Assembly: GCF_005925325.1 (NCBI RefSeq)
Contig: NZ_SRMP01000001.1
Coordinates: 434,001 to 498,000, forward strand
Direction of reading: 5' to 3'
Length of the DNA stretch: 64,000 nucleotides
Origin: Pedobacter helvus
Lineage (GTDB): Bacteria; Bacteroidota; Bacteroidia; Sphingobacteriales; Sphingobacteriaceae
Shown: piece by piece, positions 36,130 through 56,606 of the stretch
Layout of the letters: every line of letters starts with the position of its first letter
Position numbering within the stretch: the first letter of the stretch is position 1
Made by a program: the position numbers and the translations under genes
The notes under the pieces: model-generated
Told to the model about the DNA's origin: nothing
Seen by the model: the letters and a program-made list of their open reading frames with translations, nothing else
Databases searched by the model: none

Positions 36130-36198
36130 AGTTCACTTCCTTCGCACATCGGTAGCTGGTTAGCGAAAGAAAATCTCAGCTGCTAACATTTGTTTAAT

Positions 36199-36293
36199 AA
36201 ACCCGATGGAAATGGTTATACTTTTTGGAGCACAAGCATTTCTAATTTTAATGCTGGCTCTCACAAAAAGATAAAAATGTACAGCGGGACTGA
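36199..36293. repeat. Dispersed repeat AAACCCGAT..GCGGGACTGA, second copy
   Basis: Starts AAACCCGATGGAA and ends ACAGCGGGACTGATG, like the copy at 30961-31018. Interior sequence differs. It occupies the gap of about 240 bp between the YfiT-like gene and the thioesterase. Confidence 0.5.
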
Positions 36294-36371
36294 TGTTGCC
36301 CAATGACTACTGAAACTCCTTTACAAAAAAATAATACCCTAAAAACGGCCTAATTTGTTAATTTAGCAACC

Positions 36372-55688: not shown

Positions 55689-55761
55689 GCGAAAGTAGCT
55701 CAGTTGGTAGAGCACAACCTTGCCAAGGTTGGGGTCGCGAGTTCGAATCTCGTCTTTCGCT
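55689..55761 (+). tRNA. tRNA-Gly (GCC), first copy
   Basis: 73 bases. Acceptor GCGAAAG pairs with CTTTCGC, discriminator T. D arm AGCTCAGTTGGTAGAGC; anticodon arm CAACCTTGCCAAGGTTG with anticodon GCC; T arm GCGAGTTCGAATCTCGT. Followed by a 12-bp hairpin before the tRNA-Leu gene. Confidence 0.95.
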
Positions 55762-55762
55762 C

Positions 55763-55790
55763 TAAATGCCTTCCTACCAGGAGGCATTTA
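55763..55790 (+). other. Hairpin between tRNA-Gly and tRNA-Leu (first unit)
   Basis: TAAATGCCTTCC-tacc-AGGAGGCATTTA, 11 pairs with one G-T. It is repeated at 56073-56100. No long T-run follows, so it may guide processing of the dicistronic precursor rather than stop transcription. Confidence 0.6.
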
Positions 55791-55811
55791 ATTTTAAAAG
55801 CAGCAATGCTT

Positions 55812-55896
55812 GCTGAAGTGGTGGAACTGGTAGACACGCAGGACTTAAAATCCTGTGCCCTCAACAGGCGTGCGGGTTCGATTCCCGCCTTCAGTA
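55812..55896 (+). tRNA. tRNA-Leu (TAA), first copy
   Basis: 85 bases, with the long variable arm of class II tRNAs. Acceptor GCTGAAG pairs with CTTCAGT (G-T at the first pair), discriminator A. Anticodon arm CAGGACTTAAAATCCTG gives anticodon TAA; the variable arm TGCCCTCAACAGGCG and T arm GCGGGTTCGATTCCCGC follow. Confidence 0.94.
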
Positions 55897-55898
55897 CA

Positions 55899-55930
55899 AA
55901 CCTTCTTTTCACTAAAGAAGGTTTTTTTTT
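55899..55930 (+). terminator. Terminator after the first tRNA unit
   Basis: 10-bp stem AACCTTCTTT / AAAGAAGGTT, then nine T in a row. The second unit therefore needs read-through or its own promoter, and I see no TAnnTTTG before it. Confidence 0.85.
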
Positions 55931-55998
55931 CAAGATTTCATGATAATGATTACTTGGACAAACAACAAATACTGACAACATCGGATGATGTCAACAAT

Positions 55999-56071
55999 GC
56001 GAAAGTAGCTCAGTTGGTAGAGCACAACCTTGCCAAGGTTGGGGTCGCGAGTTCGAATCTCGTCTTTCGCT
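55999..56071 (+). tRNA. tRNA-Gly (GCC), second copy
   Basis: Identical over 73 bases to the copy at 55689-55761. Period between copies is 310 bases. Confidence 0.95.
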
Positions 56072-56072
56072 C

Positions 56073-56121: not shown

Positions 56122-56206
56122 GCTGAAGTGGTGGAACTGGTAGACACGCAGGACTTAAAATCCTGTGCCCTCAACAGGCGTGCGGGTTCGATTCCCGCCT
56201 TCAGTA
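56122..56206 (+). tRNA. tRNA-Leu (TAA), second copy
   Basis: Identical over 85 bases to the copy at 55812-55896. The discriminator A is at 56206. Its 3' half is repeated, damaged, at 56522-56562 beyond the GIY-YIG gene. Confidence 0.94.
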
Positions 56207-56214
56207 CTGAAACC

Positions 56215-56246
56215 AAAGCTATCAGAAATGATGGCTTTTCTTTTTT
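56215..56246 (+). terminator. Terminator after the second tRNA unit
   Basis: 9-bp stem AAAGCTATC / GATGGCTTT (one G-T), loop of 6, then TCTTTTTT. Lies just before the GIY-YIG gene. Confidence 0.75.
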
Positions 56247-56250
56247 AGTT

Positions 56251-56499
56251 ATGTTTTTTACCTATGTACTTCTATCTGAAAAGAGCGGAAAGTTCTATGT
56301 TGGACACACCGAAGATCTGACAGCTAGGTTGGATAGGCATAATAATGGCTTCGTGGTTTCTACCAGAAATAAAGGACCGTGGAAGATAGTTTACTCTGAA
56401 AAATTCAGAACCAAAGCGGAAGCCAACAGGCGTGAGTTGGAAATCAAATCCAAAAAAAGCATAAAATATATTGAAACGCTGATTTCAAACAACAGCTGA
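56251..56499 (+). CDS. Small GIY-YIG (URI-type) endonuclease-like protein
   Basis: 82 residues from the ATG at 56251 (MFFTYVLLSEKSGKFYVGHTEDLTARLDRHNNG). GIY-YIG features: FTYVLL..KFYVG (in place of GIY-YIG), the Arg in LTARLDRHN, and the metal-binding Glu in EANRRELEIKSKKSIKYIE. All catalytic residues seem present. The frame upstream is open through the tRNA genes, but that is not coding. It sits between tRNA-Leu and a broken copy of the tRNA-Leu 3' half. Reading past its TGA stop in the same frame gives HVPILIGMPSTGVRVRFPP. A short mobile or homing-type gene is likely; function is inferred. Confidence 0.85.
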   Translation: MFFTYVLLSEKSGKFYVGHTEDLTARLDRHNNGFVVSTRNKGPWKIVYSEKFRTKAEANRRELEIKSKKSIKYIETLISNNS

Positions 56500-56562
56500 C
56501 ACGTCCCGATCTTAATCGGGATGCCCTCAACAGGCGTACGGGTTCGATTCCCGCCTTCAGTA
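56500..56562 (+). pseudogene. Broken 3' half of a tRNA-Leu gene
   Basis: Bases 56522-56563 match the tRNA-Leu 3' half (56166-56207) in 41 of 42 positions. The one change (G to A) breaks the first pair of the T stem. Upstream of it the anticodon arm is replaced by TCCCGATCTTAATCGGGA, an inverted repeat with a 6-base loop, and no acceptor 5' strand is present. Not a working tRNA. Confidence 0.85.
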
Positions 56563-56573
56563 CAAACAAGTTT

Positions 56574-56606
56574 AAATCCCCTGGTTCAAAAGCTAAGGGA
56601 TTTTTT
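56574..56606 (+). terminator. Terminator after the tRNA-Leu remnant
   Basis: Stem AAATCCC / GGGATTT (with a loop of about 17) followed by TTTT. It matches the position of the terminators after the two intact units. Confidence 0.6.

Follow-up and report, generated by a model that had tools for sequence, protein, structure and literature searches.

A short GIY-YIG nuclease gene between an intact tRNA-Leu and a palindrome-bearing tRNA remnant in Pedobacter helvus, and its recurrence at tRNA genes of related bacteria

Integrative elements located at the 3′ ends of tRNA genes restore the tRNA and leave a copy of its 3′ end. The free-standing GIY-YIG homing endonuclease SegB of T-even phages is found at tRNAs and amplifies tRNA and its own gene in tandem, and donor alleles are usually cut inefficiently, according to the available passages of PMC13096335. 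In RAYTs and their GTAG REPs a small enzyme gene is tied to short dispersed palindromes, and a 2013 survey, in its available portions, describes REPs with a CGTC/TGTC tag plus AT that apparently have no dedicated transposase (PMC3733652). The accessible excerpts of the open-licence PMC literature describe neither a GIY-YIG gene accompanied by tRNA remnants or by REPs in the bacteria studied here nor a tRNA or palindrome association for UPF0213/small GIY-YIG proteins or Slx1, and those of the GIY-YIG superfamily survey (PMC1564403) hold no relevant passage on tRNA, palindromes, repeats or Bacteroid taxa.

The locus described here lies in Pedobacter helvus, within a stretch of 64,000 nucleotides, here called the window. 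On the forward strand, the genes for tRNA-Gly, tRNA-Leu and tRNA-Gly (55689..56072) are followed by an intact tRNA-Leu(TAA) at 56122..56207, identified by ARAGORN and Rfam, a terminator-like hairpin with a T run (56212..56246), a GIY-YIG nuclease gene of 82 aa (56251..56499), a tRNA-Leu remnant, and a terminator (56574..56606) of a different type from the hairpin. The earlier note had placed an 82-residue GIY-YIG gene between an intact tRNA-Leu and a 42-base copy of its 3′ half, and this layout is confirmed by the ORF, by Pfam (PF01541, E=3.1e-15) and by the tRNA calls. The first three tRNA genes, the copy number of which differs among relatives, are an older tandem duplication at the same site.

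The 42-nt repeat (56166-56207 versus 56522-56563) carries one mismatch (41/42, 97.6 % identity) and corresponds to positions 45-86 of tRNA-Leu. The tRNA copy is slightly longer than had been noted, given that GACACG at 56498..56503, which overlaps the stop codon of the nuclease, also matches the tRNA-Leu bases immediately 5′ of the anticodon arm. In the complete remnant (56498-56563), the 17-nt arm CAGGACTTAAAATCCTG is exactly swapped for the 18-nt palindrome TCCCGATCTTAATCGGGA at 56504..56521 (boundaries L27/R45), as the earlier note had read it. The reading frame past the nuclease TGA is indeed open through the remnant, but the idea that the tRNA piece is a former C-terminal extension does not hold. 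The stretch is tRNA sequence, and among the homologues analysed below 59 of the 109 genes having a downstream remnant have their stop codon beyond the start of that remnant, which indicates that the tRNA furnishes the protein tail and not the reverse.

The sole Pfam family of the window protein is GIY-YIG, with a score of 56.7 bits against a curated cut-off of 22.6. Residues Y5, Y16, G18, R26, and E62 are invariant in 52 homologues, and we take Y5, Y16, R26, and E62 to be the conserved catalytic Tyr, Tyr, Arg, and Glu of the GIY-YIG family. The predicted structure (pLDDT 93.3) matches the fold of UPF0213 best and then that of Slx1, and the nearest solved relatives by sequence are likewise UPF0213 (E=5.5e-12) and a Slx1 homologue (2.2e-5). 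Slx1 differs in having extra domains and a partner, as judged from the titles of structure entries. A group I intron was also considered and rejected: an Rfam scan of the window at gathering scores found only tRNAs and, elsewhere, one Flavo-1 RNA (36195-36295, 48.4 bits), with no intron RNA around the nuclease gene.

A whole-genome Pfam search of P. helvus found eight GIY-YIG genes. Four of these are short and located at tRNAs for Leu (the window), Met, Val, and Arg, each adjoining a damaged second copy of its own tRNA that contains a hairpin-forming palindrome. Two others (L003 and L005), coding for proteins of approximately 95 to 100 aa, are without a tRNA and flanked by other inverted repeats, and the remaining two lie within open frames of 608 and 471 codons. 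While a search of genome contigs with a single protein returned only 8 loci, a profile made from the four tRNA-type proteins matched in 92 of 151 genomes of the family (E up to 1e-8) and in 196 of 395 genomes of the phylum (E up to 1e-12), that is, in about half of the latter, which are Bacteroidota by the names of the homologues. The three further units in the same genome and the recurrence in family and phylum place the layout of the window beyond chance. A homologue was also observed beside a tRNA-Asp on a short contig labelled Cloacimonetes (L012), and another, for which no tRNA was found, on a short contig labelled Dojkabacteria (L017); these reflect transfer outside the phylum or misbinning. 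One homologue, P0035, is plasmid-borne according to its source-name label; the window protein itself had no match in the plasmid collection.

For the layouts, 161 loci with 206 distinct genes of at least 70 bits each were analysed; they are the best-scoring loci plus further ones chosen among the matches listed, so that the sample is not random and the counts tally related genes rather than independent events. An intact tRNA on the same strand was found within 300 bp at 142 of the 161 loci, and an intact or partial one at 153; none of the 206 genes has a tRNA on the opposite strand within this distance. As the reading of the earlier note requires, tRNA fragments usually accompany the homologues at other loci, though sometimes in mirrored form, and 8 of the 161 loci show no tRNA trace by the test used, some of them at contig ends. 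The commonest order is intact tRNA, terminator, nuclease, and damaged copy. In the mirrored layout, a broken 5′ copy precedes the gene and the intact tRNA follows it (28 of 206 genes with both parts), and 12 further genes have a downstream tRNA only. At least 12 isotypes are represented, namely, Met, Val, Leu, Ala, Asp, Asn, Arg, Ser, Gly, Cys, Phe, and Pro.

The 42-nt repeat of a tRNA 3′ end resembles an att site, and the unit could be read as what remains of an integrative element that once attached at the tRNA 3′ end and has lost its integrase. The GIY-YIG gene is the sole ORF of notable size between the tRNA copies and none is integrase-like, in line with the earlier note, which had seen no integrase. 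Unlike such elements, the units studied here also carry a palindrome within the tRNA copy and occur in mirrored 5′ forms, and the same short single-gene unit is present throughout, with array steps of 315 to 450 bp. An origin of this kind is extremely improbable.

To define the palindromes, we excluded the stems of the intact tRNA and required flanks matching the tRNA; 144 genes with an assigned intact tRNA were tested, and 62 of the 206 genes, having no assigned tRNA, were dropped. A palindrome was found in 106 of the 144 genes (85 of 105 with an upstream tRNA and 21 of 39 mirrored), of which approximately 14 are terminators or chance stems as judged by eye, and this flank-and-stem test detected none in the other 38. 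A looser count, in which 120 of 135 remnants had a stem of at least 6 (shuffles 15 %), was rejected as overstated because 65 of 164 intact tRNAs also pass it through their own arms.

Palindromes are frequent in the remnants and a recurrent part of the unit, and their position is characteristic of the tRNA. For Met, the boundaries are at 37/38 and 48/49 in 18 of 22 rows, and for Val they are mostly at 28 and 46. The entire anticodon arm is replaced (boundaries 27 and 45, or one less) in Gly-TCC, Pro, one Arg-ACG, and one Arg-TCT; Leu-TAA has boundaries 27 and 45 in 2 of 8 rows, the others lying elsewhere or not being found. Palindromes in Ala and Asp occur at two or more places, and pure insertions are seen in Leu-CAG/GAG (64/65) and Arg-CCT (21/22 or 26/27). 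The sequence class follows the tRNA as well, with TCCCGA..TCGGGA in the arm-replacing set, TCCGCC..GGCGGA in Met, and CCTGCC..GGCAGG in Arg and Leu-CAG/GAG remnants. In a check on a few segments defined by their flanks (10 for Val, 6 for Met, and 3 for Leu), 7 of the 10 Val segments begin with TCCCGA or TCCCGG and close perfectly, the rest being mis-captures or an ordinary arm.

The stems also change in a paired manner: T-A becomes C-G between the window and L153, A-T becomes G-C in L031, and C-G becomes T-A in L044, while one Ser-type stem contains a G-T mismatch. Together with the tRNA-like order of arms that damaged copies can retain (by eye), this would suit a nuclease acting on RNA, or a toxin-like or defence module, that targets the tRNA or a palindromic pseudo-tRNA transcript while the extra tRNA protects the host. 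We consider such a role very unlikely, given that PADLOC matched no family, that UPF0213 and Slx1, the latter specific for DNA structures, are closest in fold, and that most damaged copies are missing either the 5′ acceptor strand or the 3′ half.

The nuclease gene is maintained under purifying selection, as indicated by low dN/dS values (median, 0.12; maximum, 0.24) in 62 pairs out of 313, these being unsaturated but not independent. The tree of the nuclease agrees more closely with tRNA identity than with host family: among 140 tRNA-type genes, 31 changes of isotype were counted against at least 89 in 200 shuffles, whereas host family (137 genes) gave 50 changes against at least 70. The 22 Met-type genes all fall into one clade, which extends across six host families.

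The occupied site was compared in 29 relatives of the genus, using recX followed by tRNA-Gly and tRNA-Leu as the marker. A profile search found the nuclease at the recX site only in L153 and L169. L161 was left out for an assembly gap and a contig end, and it has a truncated second Leu copy there; the gene is thus absent in 26 of the 28 relatives that could be judged, all 26 having tRNA-Gly and tRNA-Leu. This presence or absence at a fixed site is like that of free-standing homing endonuclease genes. In the stretch covered, none of the 26 empty relatives has a palindrome-bearing Leu remnant, so that the possibility that strains without the nuclease keep the remnant was not borne out; L155 alone has a broken Leu 5′ piece.

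The flanks point to how the site was occupied. The sequence 3′ of the window remnant, including its terminator, can be aligned to the flank that follows the only tRNA-Leu of L154 (score 42; no more than 28 in 300 shuffles), this being the one relative of the 29 in which a matching flank was found. The flank between the last intact tRNA-Leu of the window and the nuclease is of another type, which is present in L155, L162, L170, and L173. This comparison fits an insertion that split a former tRNA-Leu into two halves, in which the element would have supplied a new tRNA-Leu 3′ half.

Tandem duplication of tRNA by recombination, with a resident nuclease gene carried along and redundant copies left to decay, could produce this picture: tRNA copies are duplicated in 9 of the 27 relatives lacking the nuclease at the site, and the Leu piece of L155 is decayed with no nuclease beside it. 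Such a passive history is nevertheless quite unlikely in view of the constant strand, the use of at least 12 tRNA types, the sharp palindrome boundaries (18 of 22 for Met), the purifying selection, and the tRNA-specific clades that span several host families.

Several distinct nuclease copies were observed in 31 of the 161 loci. In G113, the nuclease, tRNA 5′ part, palindrome, tRNA 3′ half, and terminator are repeated head to tail in exact steps of 358 bp, and the same order recurs in G062 in exact steps of 369 bp; other arrays have steps of 315 bp (G555) and 450 bp (G498). These tandem repeats, here of the nuclease and a damaged tRNA copy, may be the counterpart of those made by SegB, which shares the position of a GIY-YIG gene among tRNA genes of many isotypes (153 of 161 loci here), to judge from the available parts of PMC13096335 and PMC2988022. 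The present units differ in residing on bacterial chromosomes and in the damaged, palindrome-bearing tRNA copy, and the window protein has no match in the phage collection (1e-5) and no PHROGs family (1e-3). SegB is also larger than the protein of about 80 aa described here. In one of the nuclease-tRNA arrays (L050, G113:C1:2471600-2477500, reverse strand 1491-2520), an insertion of approximately 1 kb with inverted ends interrupts the repeats and is transposon-like by eye.

The recurrence of this arrangement at many different tRNAs in relatives suggests a self-spreading element of very small size. We consider it reasonably likely that the unit is a chromosomal, minimal homing-type element that invades tRNA genes, restores them, and is amplified like phage SegB. 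The nuclease of about 80 aa would cut a tRNA gene near the present position of the palindrome, which is the anticodon arm in Leu, Val, and a number of further tRNAs and lies elsewhere in the rest. Repair would then use a donor as template for the unit, its intact tRNA and its tRNA remnant serving as homology arms, and the invaded locus would regain one complete tRNA plus the nuclease and the remnant. The remnant may no longer be cut because the palindrome replaces or interrupts the target, and the intact copy may be cut again and repaired from a neighbouring unit, adding units in head-to-tail arrays. Hairpin or cruciform DNA is a possible substrate of the nuclease. Homing with restoration in this manner would give an intact copy at one end, remnants, arrays, and empty sites. 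The earlier note had suggested a minimal self-spreading unit that targets tRNA; a minimal tRNA-associated unit that inserts and multiplies is supported, while its self-spreading is what we infer.

Homing genes destroy their target, and here the remnant is disrupted by the palindrome, yet the intact tRNA copy persists. By eye, the sequence of the intact tRNA next to the nuclease does not differ from that in empty relatives, which counts against homing, given that a site wholly within the tRNA should still be cut. Inefficient cutting of donor alleles, as noted in the SegB work, would ease this problem. To our knowledge, known homing endonucleases have a separate DNA-binding domain, for which a protein of 82 aa is too short. 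Moreover, homing does not require the replacement to be palindromic.

The GIY-YIG genes L003 (G000:C6:148703) and L005 (G000:C1:916648) of P. helvus belong, with L274-L293 and L295-L323, to a sister subfamily of approximately 95 to 105 aa, which is separated from the tRNA type by one change on the tree. CGTC/TGTC-tagged REP-like repeats surround these genes in 50 of 51 loci. Within the genus, [CT]GTCA[TC] motifs lie within 200 bp in 22 of 22 sister loci, at a density of 8.9 per kb versus 0.70 in the window and 0.79 beside tRNA-type genes; in the phylum, the motif is found in 28 of 29 sister loci, at 10.2 per kb near and 1.7 far. No tRNA was found near the sister genes of the genus (0/22) or the phylum (0/29). 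The motif follows the tag plus AT given in the available portions of PMC3733652, the comparison being one of the tag motif, and the sister subfamily is a candidate enzyme for CGTC-type REPs.

Palindromes of the type TCCCGAN{3,12}TCGGGA are also dispersed in the P. helvus genome, at 70 places versus 1 for the reversed control. When 119 genomes of the genus were grouped by strength of the nuclease match, the median number of places was 59 (11-139) in the 41 genomes with a tRNA-type nuclease, 30 (0-158) in the 20 with weaker matches only, 3 in the 14 with very weak matches, and 3 (0-33) in the 44 without any match. Across the 151 family genomes, palindrome and nuclease are associated within genera (permutation, p=2e-4). 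The palindrome family is commoner where the nuclease occurs, with relatedness as the main caveat. A dispersed repeat of the same genome (AAACCYGA..GCRGGACT; L117-L149) exists with and without this palindrome inserted, and a pattern test placed 9 of the 33 palindrome places read within it.

These data, and the position of the sister subfamily among REP-like repeats, are what would be expected if the nuclease mainly mobilised palindromes, as RAYTs do with GTAG REPs, the palindrome being the recognised or mobile unit and the tRNA only a niche. This is the main rival to homing, with which it is compatible and not mutually exclusive. As the principal activity we regard it as unlikely, though clearly less so than the other alternatives. 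A tree-corrected independent-pairs test on 30 genomes gave only 3 to 4 supported pairs, which are too few; genomes with the sister subfamily only are rich in palindromes as well, so that the tRNA-type enzyme is not specifically implicated. The control palindrome CTCCGA..TCGGAG is also raised, more weakly (medians of 5, 3.5, 2, and 1), although, as a sibling of the palindrome studied, it is not a neutral control. We know of no strand-transfer chemistry for a GIY-YIG nuclease. The parallel with RAYTs is limited further by the enzyme, which is GIY-YIG and not a tyrosine (HUH) transposase, by the absence of the GTAG tag, and by the location of the palindrome inside a tRNA remnant, as compared with the available portions of PMC3733652.

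Homing at tRNA genes and the candidate role of the sister subfamily may be brought together in a broader, more tentative proposal, to which we give somewhat less than even credence. The small GIY-YIG nucleases would constitute a new class of enzymes for mobile DNA linked to palindromes, as the GIY-YIG equivalent of RAYT/REP, with both branches acting on hairpin or cruciform DNA and spreading short palindromes. The tRNA branch would comprise units of approximately 315 to 450 bp that restore the tRNA, have a hairpin in place of the anticodon arm in the second copy, and amplify in one direction, and the sister branch would be the missing enzyme of CGTC-type REPs, a candidate that is directly testable. 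If this is true, approximately half of the phylum genomes sampled (196/395) harbour a mobile element that ranks among the smallest autonomous ones and that resides at essential tRNA genes while leaving them intact. What has been shown for phage SegB, a GIY-YIG strategy that is linked to tRNA and amplifies, would then extend to bacterial chromosomes, and many tRNA fragments and tandem tRNA copies would be explained. Apart from the units described, a tandem repeat of approximately 453 bp with CCCGAT..ATCGGG palindromes was observed in L132 (G000:C5:829300-833000).
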